Shown: piece by piece, positions 2,859 to 27,654 of the stretch | How the letters are laid out: every line of letters starts with the position of its first letter | How positions within the stretch are numbered: the first letter of the stretch is position 1 | Virus record (IMG/VR): IMGVR_UViG_3300017917_002041 | Location: 1-31,460 of that record | Reading direction: 5' to 3' (one strand) | DNA: 31,460 nucleotides | Source: a virus | The notes under the pieces: model-generated | Database searches by the model: none | Told to the model about the DNA's origin: nothing | Seen by the model: only the letters and a program-made list of their open reading frames with translations | Position numbers and translations under genes: made by a program

Positions 2859-3189
2859 TTAATTTACGTGGCTTTTTAGGATGGTGAATTGATAATATAG
2901 TTTCTGGTTGTTTATAGCTTCCCATTGTTGCAAATCCATGTTCATTAATTCTCATTCTTTCATTTGGATCAAAGCTAGATGATGTTGGTGCTTTAAGTTC
3001 TTCTTTTTTAGGAACTACAACCATATTATACTCATTACCGTCTTTATCCTTTACTACTACTGATTCGGCAACTTGTAATTCTTCTTCTTTCTTTTTAGGG
3101 GTGTAGCTTGCTATTTTAGCACCAATTACTCCGGCAGCAAATAAGCCTAATGCTTTAAAAAAGTCTCTTCTATTTTCCATATTATACAT
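2851..3189 (-). CDS. Hypothetical protein with twin-arginine (Tat)-like leader
   Basis: A 112-residue protein starting MYNMENRRDFFKALGLFAAG. NRRDFFK matches the twin-arginine consensus (S/T)RRxFLK, and the following GLFAAGVIGAKIAS stretch is a moderately hydrophobic h-region. The rest is a polar chain with KKKEEE, a KDKDGNEYNMVVVPKK hairpin-like region and a basic C-terminus (HHPKKPRKLNA). A second ATG at 3180 (MENRRDFF) would avoid the 8-base overlap with queE and is equally plausible. Known Tat leaders send folded, often cofactor-containing proteins across the inner membrane, but no cofactor motif is visible here and I do not recognise the family. It may instead be a membrane-anchored protein. 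Confidence 0.6.
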   Translation of the reverse strand: MYNMENRRDFFKALGLFAAGVIGAKIASYTPKKKEEELQVAESVVVKDKDGNEYNMVVVPKKEELKAPTSSSFDPNERMRINEHGFATMGSYKQPETILSIHHPKKPRKLNA

Positions 3190-4015
3190 TTAATGTTTTA
3201 TCCCAAGCGGCAATATGTAATCTAGTTAAACCACGGAAACGATATTTCTTAGCCATTTCCATTACAAATCGAGTACGCTCTTCAAAGTTAGAAGCATCAT
3301 CTAAACCAGGCATGCAAACAACATTTTTAAGCGGTATTTCAAATGGTTCTACGAAATCACGGAATAATTCCTTAACATCATCTTCTGTACTAATAACGAA
3401 TTTAAATTGGTAGTTATCATGTTCCATAATACGCTCAATTGCTTTAGGAACAATACGTTGTTTAGCTGTCATACCTGAATTTTCTAGCTTAGGTGAGCAG
3501 TTAATTTGATCTAAAGATTGAAATAATTCTTCTTCAATATAGTTAGTACCGTTAGTTTCTATTTCATAAAAAGTATTACGTAAAGATCCTTCTACATCCA
3601 TCCAGTACTCTGTAAAGTTATTAATTGCTACTTGGTGTCCTTTAATTGTTGGTTCACCGCCTGTCCAAATAATGTGAACTAAACCATTTAAAATATCATC
3701 ATACACGCCTTCTTCTTTAAAGCGATCAAGTAAATATTGAAAGTCTTTATCTTTGCCTCTCCACAACCACTGAGATGTAGAATCACAAGTCCAAGTAGCT
3801 TTACCTTCCTTAACTAAATCACCTTCGAATATTTCACCATCTTCTAATGATGCTTCTTTCATTAAAGCATTAGTAAATGCTCTACTCATACCACAAGTTA
3901 AATTACAGATACCTAAACGTACAAAATACGCAGGAATACCTGATGAAATGCCTTCACCTTGAATCGTATAAAAATCACTACTGATAAGTAGTTTATTTGG
4001 GTCAATTTTGCTCAT
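3182..4015 (-). CDS. queE: QueE-like 7-carboxy-7-deazaguanine synthase (radical SAM)
   Basis: QueE converts 6-carboxytetrahydropterin to 7-carboxy-7-deazaguanine, the ring-contraction step toward preQ0. The 277-residue protein shows the QueE opening DFYTIQGEGISSGIPAYFVRLG (no longer segment quoted), then C37 and C41 in GICNLTCG, and TGGEPTI (118-124), the radical SAM GGE motif. The third cluster cysteine appears to be C77 in ATWTCDSTSQW, so the usual CxxxCxxC is stretched to C-x3-C-x35-C by an insertion of about 33 residues. IETNGT (about 150) and INCSPKL (about 171) are further QueE landmarks. The start ATG overlaps the stop of the 44-aa ORF (ATGA). It acts with queD and queC in this window. 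Confidence 0.9.
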   Translation of the reverse strand: MSKIDPNKLLISSDFYTIQGEGISSGIPAYFVRLGICNLTCGMSRAFTNALMKEASLEDGEIFEGDLVKEGKATWTCDSTSQWLWRGKDKDFQYLLDRFKEEGVYDDILNGLVHIIWTGGEPTIKGHQVAINNFTEYWMDVEGSLRNTFYEIETNGTNYIEEELFQSLDQINCSPKLENSGMTAKQRIVPKAIERIMEHDNYQFKFVISTEDDVKELFRDFVEPFEIPLKNVVCMPGLDDASNFEERTRFVMEMAKKYRFRGLTRLHIAAWDKTLNV

Positions 4016-4409: not shown

Positions 4410-4616
4410 TTAAGCTAATTCACTGTTTTTAACACGACGACGAGTTAAGTTGTACATTGCATCTGCTAATACATCGTTAACACTTCTTTCGCCAGCTAAT
4501 ACATAGTTTACAAAACGAGTTGTGTAACCTGTGTTTTCAGCTAAACGAGCTGTGTCGCCTTGGCGTTTACGAGCTGTGTAAAATGCCAATTTAGCGGTTT
4601 TGTTTAATTTTGCCAT
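4410..4616 (-). CDS. Small basic helix-turn-helix-like protein, 68 aa
   Basis: A basic 68-residue protein, all helical in appearance. The segment RQGDTARLAENTGYTTRFVN followed by YVLAGERSVNDVLADAMY reads like a Cro/XRE-type helix-turn-helix (LAENTGYTTRFVNYVLAG), so DNA binding is plausible. It stands alone between its own promoter-like site (4651-4682) and a terminator (4358-4388), which makes it a single-gene unit beside the tRNA. It may be a phage transcription regulator or a small DNA-binding protein. The exact family is not recognised. Confidence 0.7.
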   Translation of the reverse strand: MAKLNKTAKLAFYTARKRQGDTARLAENTGYTTRFVNYVLAGERSVNDVLADAMYNLTRRRVKNSELA

Positions 4617-4627
4617 AACGGTTTTTT

Positions 4628-4645
4628 ATTTGTTTAAATAATTAA
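4628..4645 (-). repeat. 18-base leader repeat, copy 1
   Basis: The 18 bases TTAATTATTTAAACAAAT (minus strand) occur here, 11 bases before the start of the HTH-like gene, and again at 6260-6277, where they run into the queC start codon. The identity is exact. AT-rich sequence makes chance matches easier, but both copies sit at start codons, so a shared leader or translational element is plausible. Confidence 0.45.
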
Positions 4646-4650
4646 TTAAT

Positions 4651-4682
4651 TAAAGATACAAAGTAGGAATTTGGTTTCCAAA
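4651..4682 (-). promoter_or_regulatory. Bacteroidota-type promoter for the HTH-like gene
   Basis: On the minus strand TTTG (4679-4682), a spacer of exactly 20 bases, then TATCTTTA (4651-4658), 35 bases before the ATG at 4616. It matches the Bacteroidota -33 TTTG / -7 TAnnTTTG pattern with the last G replaced by A. The -33 side reads TTTGGAAACC, like the three other strong copies in this window. Confidence 0.7.
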
Positions 4683-4686
4683 TTTG

Positions 4687-4758
4687 TTGTTATACTAGGA
4701 ATCGAACCTAGACTTTACGGACCGGGACCGTACGTACTATCCATTATACTATACAACA
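4687..4758 (-). tRNA. tRNA, anticodon CCG by position (Arg)
   Basis: A complete cloverleaf of 72 bases. The acceptor stem TGTTGTA/TATAACA has 7 pairs (one G-T), followed by discriminator A. The D-arm is GTAT/GTAC with loop AATGGATA, which contains the conserved GG. The anticodon stem is TACGG/CCGTA with loop TCCCGGT, the variable loop AAGT, and the T-arm CTAGG/CCTAG with canonical loop TTCGATT. Counting the 7-base loop gives anticodon CCG (reads CGG, Arg), but position 33 is C rather than the almost universal U, so the identity is less certain than the fold. CCA is not encoded. It lies between a terminator (upstream) and the HTH gene promoter (downstream). Confidence 0.85.
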
Positions 4759-4764
4759 AAGAGT

Positions 4765-4793
4765 AAAAAAAGGGGCTTTTTTAAGGCCCCTTT
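4765..4793 (-). terminator. Rho-independent terminator between the structured RNA and the tRNA
   Basis: An 8-bp perfect stem AAAGGGGC (4769-4776) / GCCCCTTT (4786-4793) with 9-base loop TTTTTTAAG (plus strand). On the minus strand the hairpin is followed by seven T residues (4765-4771). It would end transcripts of the structured region at 4804-5033, or read from upstream, before the tRNA. Confidence 0.85.
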
Positions 4794-4803
4794 ATGAGTA
4801 CAA

Positions 4804-5033
4804 AGACAATAAAAATTGTCTGTGGTTTGTAACAACTCGCAAAGGGTTCTCTGTAAGAGCTCAAACCACGGACGTACTTGCGTTTCCGAAGCTGAGCCGC
4901 CAGTCGGGCGTGAGCCGACACCTCTTCCGGTCGGAGTGGAAGGCTTCTACATTGAACTACGGCGGCGAGTATCTTATAAGGATACTCAAACCTGCCTTGC
5001 GACAGTTTATTCGAGTTGTCTTCTCTAGATAGC
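4804..5033 (-). ncRNA. Putative GC-rich structured non-coding RNA with tRNA-like core
   Basis: No plausible protein lies here, yet the GC content is far above the AT-rich flanks and almost every base falls in a stem. Minus-strand order: an AAAC..GTTT stem with CTGTC/GGCAG closed by a GCAA tetraloop (about 4987-5014); a 7-bp, 7-base-loop hairpin (GAGTATC/GATACTC, 4967-4987); a tRNA-like cloverleaf (4895-4966); a small GGA/TCC hairpin (about 4871-4887); a 9-bp stem CGTGGTTTG/CAAACCACA (4821-4829 with 4862-4870) holding further short stems; a 6-bp GACAAT/ATTGTC hairpin (4805-4820); then a terminator. The GNRA loop and the poly-U position both favour the minus strand. I do not recognise a known RNA family. 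Confidence 0.6.
4895..4966 (-). other. tRNA-like cloverleaf within the structured region
   Basis: Exactly 72 bases fold as a tRNA. The acceptor stem GCCGCCG/TGGCGGC has 7 pairs (one G-T). Next come TA at positions 8-9, a weakened D-arm (TTC/GAA, loop AATGTA with one G instead of GG), an anticodon-like arm around CTTCC/GGAAG containing CTCCGAC (CCG, Arg-like), a 5-base variable loop, and a T-stem GTCGG/CCGAC. The T-loop is CTCACGC, which lacks the conserved A58 and T54. It may be a highly divergent tRNA-Arg, a decayed tRNA gene, or a tRNA-like domain of a larger RNA. The degenerate D- and T-loops argue against ordinary translation use. Confidence 0.55.
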
Positions 5034-5074
5034 TAAAAAAACCGATTTGGTCGGTAAGGATTAATGCTATCTAG
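5025..5074. repeat. Perfect 9-bp inverted repeat enclosing a hairpin
   Basis: CTAGATAGC (5025-5033) is exactly complementary to GCTATCTAG (5066-5074). Between them lies the 5-bp ACCGA/TCGGT terminator hairpin. In the minus-strand transcript the two arms could close around the terminator, putting them at the 5' boundary of the structured RNA. Confidence 0.6.
5035..5055 (-). terminator. Terminator-like hairpin downstream of the membrane protein gene
   Basis: On the minus strand ACCGA-CCAAA-TCGGT is followed by a run of seven T (5035-5041). The stem is short (5 bp) but the U-tract is good. It lies about 55 bases after the stop of the 113-aa membrane protein and at the upstream boundary of the structured RNA, so it may separate the two transcripts or act as an attenuator. 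Confidence 0.6.
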
Positions 5075-5108
5075 TCCCTTTGTTGTATTTTTTGTGTATA
5101 TGAATATA

Positions 5109-5450
5109 CTAACCAAAAATCGCTACTCCAACTACTGTTCCGATAGTTGCTGAAATAAGAAAAATTATTTGGTCAATTCTAGTTCCATAAACCATTCTTT
5201 GGACATTCATCATAAACGATATCCAAAAGAAAAATGCTACTACTACTAATAAAGCATCAGCCTGCATACTGCCAGATGCCCATCTAGAACTAATATTACT
5301 TCTCATTAGAGCATGTAAAAATGCTGATGTGAAGGCTATAATAAATGTAATAGGATTGTATGTATTTACTTTTAAATATTGAGTAAATAGTGATTTATTA
5401 CCTTGTGTTAATACTTTTTTTACTTTTGGTTTTGTTTGTTTATTTTCCAT
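5109..5450 (-). CDS. Three-helix inner-membrane protein, 113 aa
   Basis: A basic cytoplasmic-looking N-terminus of about 30 residues (KPKVKKVLTQGNK) precedes three hydrophobic segments: about 32-50 (NPITFIIAFTSAFLHALM), 65-84 (ADALLVVVAFFFWISFMMNV) and 92-112 (DQIIFLISATIGTVVGVAIF). The size and three membrane spans fit a class I holin, but no lysis gene is adjacent, so that is only a possibility. It overlaps the end of queC by 11 bases and is therefore coupled to the 7-deazaguanine operon. Family not recognised. Confidence 0.65.
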   Translation of the reverse strand: MENKQTKPKVKKVLTQGNKSLFTQYLKVNTYNPITFIIAFTSAFLHALMRSNISSRWASGSMQADALLVVVAFFFWISFMMNVQRMVYGTRIDQIIFLISATIGTVVGVAIFG

Positions 5451-6261
5451 AACTGTCTAAGACTTTTTGTACTGATTCTTTTACTTCATCCCATTTTACT
5501 GTACGAATACCACCGTTTTCTAATACTTCACCGTATTGTACAGGATCAGGACGACCTAATTTAATAAATGCTTCTACGCGTTCAACAGATGCTGCTGACT
5601 TATAATCAGATAACCAGATATCATCTGTTAATTTAATTGGTTTGTATGATGTATTTGTACGTTTGTATACTTCATCAAAATCTAATCCTAATTTATTACA
5701 TGATGCTAATCCATCTTGTAAAATTTCAAATTTATTTACTTCAAGATATGGAGTATAAACTGTAACTAACTCTGAATCCCAGTTTCCTTGTTTAAAGGCT
5801 TCCATATCTATATCTCTAAACTCTTGTCTGCAATCAGGGTAAATAGCATGATCGCCTGCATGAATTCCCATTGCAATAGCACATTCTTGCTTTTCACCTT
5901 TAGTAGCAACTGATAATGCTACAGCTTGAATAATTGAACTGAATATTTTATTACGATTAGGTACAACTGTCTCTTTCATGTTGTCTTGCTCGTAGTGTCC
6001 TTCTGGTACATCAGCACCACCTGTTACTAAAGCTGAGTTTAATAATTGAGATAAACCATCTAATTTAATAATTTGATGTGTTACGGGTTGATTGTTTTCT
6101 TTTAGATAATGTACTAATGATTTAGCACGCTCTAATTCTACTTTGTGCTTTTGGCCATAATCAAAACCTAATGCTGTTACTTTATAGCCATTAGCTAATA
6201 GGTGTAATAATAATGAACTGCTGTCCATTCCACCTGACAGTGATAATACTGCTTGTTTCAT
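5440..6261 (-). CDS. queC: QueC-like 7-cyano-7-deazaguanine (preQ0) synthase
   Basis: QueC is an ATP-dependent amidoligase/nitrile-forming enzyme that turns 7-carboxy-7-deazaguanine into preQ0. The 273-residue protein has the PP-loop SGGMDS (9-14), GFDYGQKH (32-39), VPNRNKIF (100-107) and the GIHAGDHAIYPDCR segment (132-145). The canonical C-terminal zinc site (SCY...CGxCxxC before VERxxAF) is replaced by NTSYK (203-207) and LSDYKSAASVERVEAF (217-232), so all four cysteine ligands are missing. The active-site motifs are intact, so I still call it QueC. It lies in one operon with queD, queE and a DpdA-like gene. Confidence 0.9.
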   Translation of the reverse strand: MKQAVLSLSGGMDSSSLLLHLLANGYKVTALGFDYGQKHKVELERAKSLVHYLKENNQPVTHQIIKLDGLSQLLNSALVTGGADVPEGHYEQDNMKETVVPNRNKIFSSIIQAVALSVATKGEKQECAIAMGIHAGDHAIYPDCRQEFRDIDMEAFKQGNWDSELVTVYTPYLEVNKFEILQDGLASCNKLGLDFDEVYKRTNTSYKPIKLTDDIWLSDYKSAASVERVEAFIKLGRPDPVQYGEVLENGGIRTVKWDEVKESVQKVLDSYGK

Positions 6262-7102: not shown

Positions 7103-7386
7103 TATTGGTAGTGTTTTAATTTTTTCTTTAATCTATCGATTCTAATTTGACAATACCATTTACCCATATTGCTAGAGGCGTTGGTATATCTTTCTTCCCA
7201 ATACTTGATTGCTTGATTTGTTTTTTCATTTGCTTTTTCAAGTATGTCAATATCATAGTAACTATGAGGCTCAAGCATTGCTTCTTCCCATTCTTTTTGA
7301 TCTATGGGTTTCGATTGTTCATATTCCTCACGAAGCATTTTGCGACGAGATTTTTCTTGATTTTTTTCAAACTTTTTATCGCTCAT
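7102..7386 (-). CDS. Hypothetical protein, 94 aa, highly charged and helical
   Basis: I chose the ATG at 7386 (MSDKKFEKNQEKSRRKMLRE) because it gives an 11-base overlap with queD, like its neighbours; the in-frame ATG at 7416 would overlap by 41 bases. The protein is almost wholly charged helix with KSRRKMLREEYEQSK, AIKYWEERYTNASSN and a basic end (IRIDRLKKKLKHYQ), suggesting coiled-coil or nucleic-acid contacts. No family recognised. It lies between queD and the thioredoxin. Confidence 0.65.
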   Translation of the reverse strand: MSDKKFEKNQEKSRRKMLREEYEQSKPIDQKEWEEAMLEPHSYYDIDILEKANEKTNQAIKYWEERYTNASSNMGKWYCQIRIDRLKKKLKHYQ

Positions 7387-7840
7387 ATATAGCTGTATTT
7401 TTGTTGTGTTCAGCAAATTCTACTCTAATAACACTAACTCTACCGTTTGTTTCTTCTTGAACAAATGCATCTAATTTTTCAAACACATACTTAGCAAATT
7501 GTTCAGCGCCTACACTAGGTAAAATTCTAATTTGAGCTGCACCTACTTTTCCCATTTCTATAAATGCATTTATGAATGGATCATCTTCTGCAATAATAGT
7601 AGTGTGATCAAACATGTAATCCATCCATGCTTTAGGATTCATACCATCAATAGTACCTTTAGCTCTTTTCATACCACCGAAGTCCCATACCCAATTACGT
7701 TCATCTAAATCACCTTCGAACCATATTTTAAATGATACTCCATACCCGTGAATGTATTTACAGTGAGTACCTTCTGCTTTCCATTGACGGAATACTGTAC
7801 TGAATCCATCAAATATTTTTGTTGATTGAAATTTTGGCAT
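7376..7840 (-). CDS. queD: QueD-like 6-carboxytetrahydropterin synthase
   Basis: QueD (T-fold, PTPS family) makes 6-carboxytetrahydropterin from dihydroneopterin triphosphate. In the 154-residue protein the catalytic Cys is C27 in GTHCKYIHGY, followed by WVWDFGGMK (50-58), FDHTTIIAEDDP (77-88, the catalytic Asp-His), VGAEQFAKYVF (110-120) and VEFAEHNKNTAIY at the end. Canonical zinc ligands are one His in FxxAH plus HGH. Here the first is F17 (FSTVFRQW) and HGH is HGY (H31, Y33), so two of three histidines are changed. This looks like a divergent subfamily rather than a dead copy, because the rest is well kept. It is 5 bases from the DpdA-like gene. Confidence 0.87.
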   Translation of the reverse strand: MPKFQSTKIFDGFSTVFRQWKAEGTHCKYIHGYGVSFKIWFEGDLDERNWVWDFGGMKRAKGTIDGMNPKAWMDYMFDHTTIIAEDDPFINAFIEMGKVGAAQIRILPSVGAEQFAKYVFEKLDAFVQEETNGRVSVIRVEFAEHNKNTAIYER

Positions 7841-7845
7841 ATACT

Positions 7846-8634
7846 TTATTTTATAAATTGTTTAAACATGTTAACATTGAATATAATATCTTCTAATTGG
7901 TCACTCAAATCTTTTTCAAAATAGTGCTCTAATTTTTCTTTTGGTTTCCATGGTATACCACTATCAGTATATCTTTGATTTTCAGCTCCAACTAAAATTG
8001 GATTAGATGTGTCCACTGATTTAATAAATTTCCAATCTTTATATGACATGAATTCTTGTGGTAATGAACATCCTAATAAATGGTGATAATGCGATTTTCT
8101 AATAGTGCCTGATTGTACTAGGCGTCTAATAAACTCCATTCTACCATACATTTGTGCTTTTAAATCAGGCATAGCACCGTCATATTCTTTTCTATAGGCA
8201 ATACTAGAATGATTAAATGCAATGTGGGTATAACCTATGTCAACTAGTGTTTGATAGGTTGTAACTAACTCACCCATATCATTACCCTGACATACTGCCA
8301 TTAAGTTAACATCTTCTGGAATATGTTGTTTGTAATTGATCATCCAACTTTTAGCATTTACTAAAGTTGTATTAGCATCATTCCAAGCATCAGGAACGAT
8401 AAACACATTAGGATGAATTAAATTAATTTTTTCTAATAAGTCTTCTGTTGTGTGAGTTACTCCTTCAAATAAACCATTATCCATGATAATAAAACGTTTA
8501 TCTAAACGTGATTTTTGGAAAAACAATTTGTATTGATCGTAATGATCAATTAAATGGGGAAGACAATAATCATAATCGTTCCACTTATAAGCATTGTGCA
8601 TTAAGCTGAGAGGTAGTTCGTGGCTAATTTTCAT
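7846..8634 (-). CDS. dpdA: TGT/DpdA-like 7-deazaguanine transglycosylase
   Basis: This 262-residue protein resembles the tRNA-guanine transglycosylase fold seen in DpdA enzymes, which swap guanine in DNA for a 7-deazaguanine base. Landmarks: FIIMDNGLFEG (Asp about residue 52, candidate acid/base), IVPDAWND, LMAVCQGND, YTHIAFNHSS, HHLLGCSLPQEF (like the LLG..P motif of TGTs) and SVDTSNPILVG (Asp about 208, candidate nucleophile). The TGT zinc cysteine motif is missing, as in phage DpdAs. I chose ATG 8634 (MKISHELPLSL); ATG 8667 would add 11 unlikely residues and a longer overlap. Its position beside queD, with queC and queE downstream, supports DNA rather than tRNA modification. Family assignment is by motif recall. 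Confidence 0.72.
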   Translation of the reverse strand: MKISHELPLSLMHNAYKWNDYDYCLPHLIDHYDQYKLFFQKSRLDKRFIIMDNGLFEGVTHTTEDLLEKINLIHPNVFIVPDAWNDANTTLVNAKSWMINYKQHIPEDVNLMAVCQGNDMGELVTTYQTLVDIGYTHIAFNHSSIAYRKEYDGAMPDLKAQMYGRMEFIRRLVQSGTIRKSHYHHLLGCSLPQEFMSYKDWKFIKSVDTSNPILVGAENQRYTDSGIPWKPKEKLEHYFEKDLSDQLEDIIFNVNMFKQFIK

Positions 8635-8797
8635 CTTGTTCAATTGGTTTAATATTCTCAAAATCACCTATTACTTTATCTAGGATTTCCAAAACACGAT
8701 CAACATCAGCTTTTGTAGGGTCTGCAATCATTTGTTCTAGTTCTTCTTTTAGTTTAGGGAGATCGTCTATTACTTTAGATAGTTCTTTATCGTCCAT
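8624..8797 (-). CDS. Small acidic protein, 57 aa
   Basis: A short ORF filling the gap between the DUF5522 gene and the DpdA-like gene. It reads MDDKELSKVIDDLPKLKEEL, then EQMIADPTKADVDRVLEILD, and ends PIEQDEN. It is fully helical in appearance and acidic, with heptad-like hydrophobic spacing suggesting a small coiled coil. Its stop overlaps the chosen DpdA-like start by 11 bases, the usual coupling in this operon. Function unknown. Confidence 0.6.
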   Translation of the reverse strand: MDDKELSKVIDDLPKLKEELEQMIADPTKADVDRVLEILDKVIGDFENIKPIEQDEN

Positions 8798-26663: not shown

Positions 26664-26912
26664 TGCGGTATAGGTCGGTTTTATATTGGGTTTTGCTGTT
26701 TGTGCCGTTTTGGACTTCAGTGCGTTTTGTTTTTGTATATTTTCTTCGTCTTTATTTTTCTTTTCGTAATGTGTTCTTATTTGATTGTAAATATAATCAC
26801 GATAACGAATTGGCATATTATATATAGTAGCCCAATCATATCCGCCGTTTCCATAAAATACTATTTCATGTATTCGGGAGAATATGTGTTCTCTATATCT
26901 AGGCGTCAGGCC
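26646..26912 (-). CDS. Tail assembly chaperone, frameshift extension (T-type)
   Basis: An 88-codon open frame that has no start codon before its conserved-looking part: GLTPRYREHIFSRIHEIVFY, GNGGYDWATIYNMPIRYRDY, then a basic tail ending AKRAPK. It overlaps the last three codons and stop of the upstream chaperone gene in the +1 (equivalently -2) frame. The shared stretch AAC TTT TTT TGG gives a seven-T slippery run (26913-26919) where P-site tRNA-Phe can re-pair. Position between tube and tape measure is exactly that of the G/GT-type chaperone pair. The fused product would be about 338 residues. The only internal ATG would drop the first 32 residues, so expression by shift is more likely. Confidence 0.8.
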   Translation of the reverse strand, partial: GLTPRYREHIFSRIHEIVFYGNGGYDWATIYNMPIRYRDYIYNQIRTHYEKKNKDEENIQKQNALKSKTAQTAKPNIKPTYTAKRAPK

Positions 26913-27654
26913 AAAAAAAGTTAATATTAATTGGTATAACTACGCCCTCCTGTACGTAGCTATCTTTATCGATTGTGATTTCAGTATCAATATCTGGTGA
27001 TATTTCATTGTAATATTTTTTAAATGCTCTAGAATCAGGAGCAAGTAATAAATTATCTACAAAATCACGAATTGATGCTTGATCTGCTTTGCCATTGATA
27101 GAAGTAATCATGTGTTTTAAACGAGTAGTACCTTCAAATGATCCATTTGGGTCTACTTTTTGCAAACCTTTAAGTTCAGCATCAATTGCTTTTTCGTCTT
27201 TACCTGTTAGTAATTTAAATGTAACAACATTACCTGATTTTGGTAAAGCAAACTTAAATTCGTTTTTACCTTTTTCAAATAATGTTTCGTCTAATTCTTT
27301 TTCTTTTAATTGAGTTAAATCTACAGTATAATTTTCATCTTTACCTGTTGATTCATTTCTAAACTTAATATCATAATCCTTACCGTATCCTAAAATACGA
27401 GCAGCAAATAGTACAGCGTTTTTATCGCCCGTAATTAAATCATCAATATCAATTGGTGATACAATTAATGATTTTAATAACTTGTCAATAGCTATACCTT
27501 GCTTGATAAAGTTAATGTTAGTTAAAATATCTTCATCTTTGGCGCTCATATAGCGCATTTCAATTTCGCCTGAAGATAACGGTGATGTTTCGGGATAAAC
27601 GAGACCTTTTGATGGTAGTGTGACTGTTTCTGTTGGAATTTTTAAATCTGCCAT
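26899..27654 (-). CDS. Tail assembly chaperone (G-type), 251 aa
   Basis: The 251-residue protein starts MADLKIPTETVTLPSKGLVY, then ETSPLSSGEIEMRYMSAKDE, and ends NINFFWPDA. The LPSKGxxYP, GEIEMRYMSAKDEDIL and GNVVTFKLLTGKDEKAI segments are typical of myophage tail assembly chaperones that coat the tape measure before the tube forms. It has a late-type motif 24 bases upstream and a strong terminator further upstream, so it starts a new transcript. The 3' end has a slippery T7 run giving a longer form. Confidence 0.82.
   Translation of the reverse strand: MADLKIPTETVTLPSKGLVYPETSPLSSGEIEMRYMSAKDEDILTNINFIKQGIAIDKLLKSLIVSPIDIDDLITGDKNAVLFAARILGYGKDYDIKFRNESTGKDENYTVDLTQLKEKELDETLFEKGKNEFKFALPKSGNVVTFKLLTGKDEKAIDAELKGLQKVDPNGSFEGTTRLKHMITSINGKADQASIRDFVDNLLLAPDSRAFKKYYNEISPDIDTEITIDKDSYVQEGVVIPININFFWPDA
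26913..26919 (-). promoter_or_regulatory. Slippery heptamer for +1/-2 ribosomal frameshift
   Basis: Seven consecutive T in the frame AAC TTT TTT TGG, 12 bases before the zero-frame stop codon at 26899-26901. A +1 slip of tRNA-Phe (TTT to TTT) or a -2 slip both re-pair perfectly and enter the 26646-26912 frame. A seven-T slip at a short distance before a stop is a familiar layout for phage tail chaperones, though -1 is the usual direction. Confidence 0.7.

Follow-up and report, generated by a model that had tools for sequence, protein, structure and literature searches.

Two kinds of phage-encoded RNA, ROOL and GOLLD, occur close to tRNA islands of phages and are heavily structured and pseudoknotted; their function is unknown, although GOLLD linkers sometimes hold tRNAs and GOLLD members often exceed 800 nt (PMC12286853). 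For most structured RNAs found near phage tRNAs, the function is likewise not known. Outside phages, tRNA-Other of Bacillus cereus is described as a tRNA-like element without a role in translation that forms part of a larger RNA, probably a regulatory one (PMC3399842). Why phages retain tRNA genes, even for scarcely used codons, is an old open question, and phage tRNAs have been argued to be counter-measures to anticodon nucleases (PMC10264068, PMC11555353). Here we describe a phage locus where a conserved scaffold with a tRNA-like arm stands beside a tRNA with an identical anticodon, a specific and testable example of how phage tRNA modules might act outside translation.

Genomic context of the locus

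The DNA analysed (hereafter, the window) is the whole 31,460-base virus record IMGVR_UViG_3300017917_002041, whose replication and tail genes are T4-like. The host is probably a Bacteroidota bacterium, since the closest tail sheath is that of Flavobacterium phage immuto (52%). The minus strand carries every window gene used in this analysis. Between 3182 and 8667 these include queE, queC, queD and a 273-aa protein that we take to be DpdA/TGT-like (putative; Pfam returned no match for it), which suggests that the phage DNA carries a 7-deazaguanine modification. The intergenic gap noticed in the initial annotation is real and lies between ORFs 4410-4616 and 5109-5450. To the structured stretch described there we add a genuine tRNA-Arg(CCG), also within the gap. 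Our searches retrieved a single relative of the locus, L102 (IMGVR_UViG_3300008116_000011, 174,437 bases), which has the same order in the same gene slot: p113, RNA, tRNA-Arg(CCG) and a 68-aa gene (p68).

Table 1. Coordinates of the features discussed. Positions refer to the window unless another record is named.
Feature	Position	Strand	Remarks
queE	3182-4015	minus	7-deazaguanine gene
tRNA-Arg (CCG)	4758-4686	minus	ARAGORN and Rfam, 55.6 bits
Outer helix, 3' strand CUCUUUGUUGUAU	4763-4751	minus	overlaps acceptor 5' strand of tRNA-Arg
Intrinsic terminator AAAGGGGC..GCCCC + U-run	4793-4765	minus	8 bp + U7
Pk, 3' strand CAAACCAC	4829-4822	minus
P1, 3' strand CGAGUUGUU	4839-4831	minus
Pk, 5' strand GUGGUUUG	4869-4862	minus	8 bp with CAAACCAC; crosses P1; invariant
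tRNA-like cloverleaf, 72 nt	4966-4895	minus	Rfam tRNA match; pair-preserving changes in L102
P3, 7-bp hairpin	4987-4967	minus	from sequence; abuts cloverleaf directly; pairs invariant, loop length variable
P2, 5-bp hairpin, GCAA (GNRA) cap	5005-4992	minus	from sequence; invariant
P1, 5' strand GACAACUCG	5020-5012	minus	9 bp with 4839-4831; same in both sequences
P0 domain, 8-9 bp stem CUAGAUAGC/GCUAUCUAG	5074-5025	minus	encloses CCGA/UCGG hairpin + U-run; 96% identical in L102, loops included
Outer helix, 5' strand AUACAACAAAGGG	5088-5076	minus	partner strand 4763-4751; 13 bp (window) or 12 bp (L102); both full-length MFE folds contain it
Promoter-like box TATATTCATA	5108-5099	minus	just past p113 stop codon; lineage-specific
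p113, 113-aa putative membrane protein	5109-5450	minus	same accessory cassette as RNA; both present in L102
queC	5440-6261	minus	7-deazaguanine gene
queD	7376-7840	minus	7-deazaguanine gene
Putative DpdA/TGT-like protein	7846-8667	minus	273 aa
Phage tmRNA genes	L087 15979-16338; L088 17952-18311; L165 2379-2768	L165 minus	L087 and L088 copies in queC slot
AAAAAGGGTTT...CAAACCAGAAACCCTG motif sites	L178 2541; L179 1207; also L180, L181, L183, L185, L186
tRNA-like gene after ACCAAYGCTYGCTGTTA-closed domain	L087 15865-15955; L088 17840-17925; L101 18705-18788; L178 2634-2719
Unnamed structured RNA in L102's record	L165 about 790-1110	minus	promoter-like box + terminator
tRNA gene array	L164 1027-2850		>20 tRNA genes

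A candidate RNA gene with predicted transcription signals

The gap is best read as containing an independently transcribed structured RNA gene of ~300-320 nt on the minus strand, at about 5088-4765. The GC-rich, strongly folding stretch reported initially was borne out, with a GC content of 52% at 4822-5022 against 32% for the window; the window's GC-richest 200-nt stretch, also the most stable one on the minus strand, begins at ~4811-4821. The minus-strand fold of 311 nt (4765-5075) reached -105 kcal/mol, compared with -74.6 +/- 5.2 kcal/mol for shuffled sequences (z = -5.9), and none of 100 shuffles was as good. All the elements proposed earlier (a GNRA stem, a 7-bp hairpin, a 72-nt cloverleaf, a 9-bp stem and 3' hairpins) exist on this strand. 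The RNA had also been described as bounded by terminators, which is correct for its 3' end; the 5' candidate is a 5-bp hairpin plus U-run within the conserved 5' stem and provides no clean boundary. The 3' terminator of L102 carries one compensatory change (G-C to A-U).

The promoter-like box upstream of the RNA is likely a late promoter. In the L102 record, the motif TATATT[TC]ATA was found 17 times in sense and once in antisense orientation. Among the 17 sense boxes, 13 sit 13-32 nt before an ORF (2 of these 13 recognised by eye), one is intragenic and three precede non-coding RNA genes, namely this RNA, a tmRNA and an unnamed structured RNA. The window contains two boxes, both in sense orientation, at 5108-5099 and 27687, the latter before gene 26899-27654.

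A coding role was rejected: the 70-aa plus-strand ORF at 4816-5028 is interrupted in L102, and reading frames are shifted by indels.

Conservation of the RNA and its tRNA-like cloverleaf

Between the window and L102, the RNA is 91.5% identical over its whole length, 96% in P0 and 94% in P1-P3 plus cloverleaf. The corresponding values are 79% for queC, 80% for p113, 73% for p68, 80% for queE, 77% for the dpdA-like gene, 82% for queD, 85% for the helicase and 80% for tRNA-Arg. Because its identity exceeds that of neighbouring genes and of tRNA-Arg, the RNA is the most conserved piece of its surroundings. L102 differs in its 3' part by a 24-nt tandem duplication, TGGTTTGAGCTTATACAAAGAACC, which covers the 5' Pk strand and its loop.

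The cloverleaf scored 31.2 bits against the Rfam tRNA model (RF00005; gathering score 29), with E = 0.0075 for the whole window and all families. The initial statement that no known RNA family is matched is thus valid for the RNA as a whole and fails for this module. ARAGORN called the cloverleaf neither in the window nor in L102. Its anticodon-like loop, CUCCGAC in both sequences, has CCG at 4934-4932 together with U33 and A37; we took the anticodon-like stem as CUUCC/GGAAG, a register slightly unlike that of Rfam. Degenerate D and T loops had been claimed. The T-like loop (CUCACGC in the window, AUCAAGC in L102) is indeed degenerate and departs more, whereas the D-arm (UAGUUCAAUG-UAGAAG) matches an ordinary tRNA except for one missing G of the usual GG. 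A test for the canonical T-loop (TTCRANY) and D-loop GG was accordingly negative. Several E. coli arginine identity features are missing from the cloverleaf too, which counts against the mimic reading proposed below.

The cloverleaves of the two phages differ at eight positions, which yield two compensatory and two compatible pairs and break none; when the same changes were placed at random, an equally good outcome arose in 0.05% of trials (P about 0.0005). L102 thus supplies the homologue with compensatory changes by which the first description could be checked, and the comparison demonstrates that selection has preserved structure in a minus-strand RNA carrying a tRNA-like module. A plus-strand RNA was considered and rejected. 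It folds well (z = -4.8), but the same changes read on that strand break one cloverleaf pair, which favours the minus strand, and the promoter-like box and terminator also point to the latter.

The suggestion of a decayed tRNA array is not supported: nothing else in the region is as well conserved as this element, and pairing is maintained through its changes. More generally, a decaying tRNA or tRNA-derived debris devoid of current function could explain the ordinary D-arm lacking one G, the degenerate T-like loop and the tandem duplication in L102; this is nevertheless very improbable for an RNA with conservation above that of its coding neighbours, compensatory changes, and a promoter-like box and terminator of its own. 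The compensatory changes, the conservation of the element and the flanking signals all support a discrete structured RNA that contains a tRNA-like cloverleaf.

A putative pseudoknotted scaffold

Around the cloverleaf, helices P1 and Pk cross, so that they form either a pseudoknot or alternative helices. The MFE fold of window positions 4765-5075 uses Pk, and that of L102 uses P1. In our structural model, the scaffold is probably closed by a pseudoknot of these two helices, which presents the cloverleaf. The unit as a whole is closed by the outer helix. Covariation could be assessed on two sequences, in which the pairs of P1, P2, P3 and Pk are identical and hence lack covariation support; R-scape-grade covariation is out of reach because only these two sequences exist.

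The neighbouring tRNA-Arg(CCG)

The tRNA-Arg begins ~10 nt past the terminator U-run; lacking a promoter-like box of its own, it is probably produced by read-through. The codon CGG is absent from the window (0 of 9709 codons) and is the rarest in the L102 record (11 of 43630, 10 of them within one ORF). U33 is near-universal in tRNAs; the window copy of this tRNA has C33 and the L102 copy U33.

This arrangement raises the possibility of a cis-acting leader in which the RNA, together with its terminator and the outer helix, governs either read-through into tRNA-Arg(CCG) or the processing of that tRNA, with the outer helix hiding the 5' strand of the tRNA acceptor until a signal frees it. The short terminator-to-tRNA gap, through which the tRNA can be reached by read-through alone, is kept in L102, as is the outer helix of 12-13 bp with compatible changes, and both full-length folds prefer this helix over the acceptor stem. 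However, the tRNA acceptor in any case constrains sequence that the helix shares, conservation of the RNA is far higher than that of its supposed target tRNA, inspection by eye revealed no anti-terminator pairing in both sequences, and Rfam gave no T-box family match. We regard a leader, the strongest alternative to the reading proposed below, as possible but doubtful.

The cloverleaf CCG is also the anticodon of the neighbouring tRNA-Arg in both phages. Sharing this loop with a tRNA that lacks a codon in the window makes a tRNA-directed role of the RNA more plausible, though unproven; against such a role, the shared CCG could be a coincidence (about 1 in 64, and less unlikely in GC-rich sequence).

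An accessory module in a variable slot

L004/L082 are about 91% identical to the window over long nearby stretches, yet they lack the cassette, and ~30 bases separate their queC from the 68-aa gene; the cassette is therefore dispensable. Five other relatives (L087, L088, L090, L091 and L101) have different structured RNAs between queC and the 68-aa gene, and in the cultured phage immuto a related RNA follows queC, together with a gene that its record labels tRNA-Cys. Since the cassette is absent from this slot or replaced there by other RNAs in relatives, the slot downstream of queC is, on gene order, a hot spot where phages of this lineage carry tmRNAs or unnamed structured RNAs, and the window RNA is an accessory module.

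An element acting at the DNA level (a replication origin, or a packaging or recombination site) whose palindromes fold as RNA by chance would agree with the strong inverted repeats on both strands. It is extremely improbable, as the G-U-compatible changes fit a minus-strand RNA only, the cassette is dispensable and such sites would not be expected to fold like a tRNA.

Several further RNAs were observed in related records. The structured RNA ncB, located in the same slot in other relatives, was rejected as a homologue: it showed no visible sequence similarity and was not matched by the covariance model R1. A motif, AAAAAGGGTTT(A/G)TA(A/G)TAC-N5/6-CAAACCAGAAACCCTG, is common to phages of Flavobacterium, Vibrio and (by blastn) Bacillus and to several metagenomic phages; Rfam gave no match for the Flavobacterium and Vibrio copies. 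The immuto lineage has the motif inside a domain closed by ACCAAYGCTYGCTGTTA / AGRTTGGT. The tRNA-like gene that follows this domain has a normal acceptor stem and T-arm and a degenerate anticodon arm; ARAGORN did not call it, and it is annotated as tRNA-Cys in the immuto record. The unnamed RNA of L165 has a weak, sub-threshold manA match (19.8 bits vs 55.2). The tRNA array of L164 is broken up by several stretches that are structured, resemble tRNAs or are closed by a hairpin; ARAGORN left these uncalled.

Searches for homologues

Rfam, at the gathering cut-off and at E up to 5, returned only the two tRNAs and two weak sub-cut-off matches, none spanning the whole RNA. DNA-pattern scans retrieved, from the viral collection, the L102 record alone plus three records through the P0 pattern only, and no homologue from the genome collection. 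Blastn against phages and plasmids gave nothing beyond the tRNA and matches of 20-30 bases. Over about 100 related records, R1 matched only L102 and ordinary tRNAs, the latter via the cloverleaf; matches at 33.7 and 29.3 bits were rejected as tRNA-Gly and tRNA-Thr, and one in L111 at 19.8 bits overlaps a coding gene. With p113 as anchor, the viral collection returned no relative although L102 carries this gene; the collections searched may miss the nearest relatives. The RNA is best regarded, on these comparisons, as a new family with two members, the window and L102.

Possible function and comparison with known RNAs

We tentatively propose, with somewhat less than even confidence, that this accessory RNA, probably expressed late, is a tRNA mimic that takes no part in translation and acts on a protein that handles tRNAs. 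It would be transcribed from the promoter-like box to the terminator as a stand-alone minus-strand RNA, whose multi-helix and probably pseudoknotted scaffold would display the cloverleaf. With its degenerate T-like loop and a D-loop short of one G, the cloverleaf may be unfit for translation and might act in trans, tying up such a protein, for example a host enzyme that cleaves, modifies or aminoacylates tRNAs. Read-through of the same transcription unit would supply the codon-less tRNA-Arg(CCG), which could act together with this mimic. A more specific version, in which the CCG anticodon arm is bait for a host arginine-tRNA nuclease (with colicin-D-like specificity) or a similar defence and tRNA-Arg(CCG) is its partner, is distinctly improbable; if true, it would be the first dedicated RNA decoy against tRNA-targeting immunity. 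Phage tRNAs proposed to counter nucleases offer a parallel, as a tRNA kept beyond codon supply would fit tRNA-Arg(CCG) without CGG codons; they are whole tRNAs, whereas the mimic considered here is embedded in a larger RNA (PMC10264068, PMC11555353).

Like ROOL and GOLLD, the window RNA is phage-encoded, structured, putatively pseudoknotted and close to tRNA genes. By analogy, it might be an architectural RNA forming RNA-only multimers in which the tRNA-like arm serves as a structural module, a reading to which the tRNA-island setting, the pseudoknots and the occasional linker tRNAs of those families lend some weight (PMC12286853). It appears unlikely, because neither model matched at E up to 5 and the RNA does not reach half the size of those families; the same search on 4600-5120 gave no match to the T-box and HDV-like models.

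A tRNA-like domain in a larger RNA also recalls tmRNA, and relatives of the window phage carry real tmRNAs. However, tmRNA builds an alanyl tRNA-like domain from its 5' and 3' ends and contains a tag ORF, whereas the window cloverleaf is internal and contiguous, has an anticodon-like arm and comes with no tag ORF; neither ARAGORN nor Rfam (RF00023) found a tmRNA in the window. Theta ribozymes are structured RNAs adjoining phage tRNAs as well, but they are HDV-like and lie at tRNA 3' ends (PMC10879173), whereas the window RNA is located 5' of its tRNA, and its helix order is unlike the HDV-like nested pseudoknot. tRNA-Other offers a precedent for a tRNA-like element within a larger regulatory RNA; it resides on a bacterial genomic island instead of a phage, and its abstract mentions no pseudoknotted scaffold (PMC3399842). 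With its tRNA-like fold and predicted signals of a transcription unit, the window RNA is a candidate for the tRNA-Other type, which would require a non-translational fold of this kind within a longer transcript.
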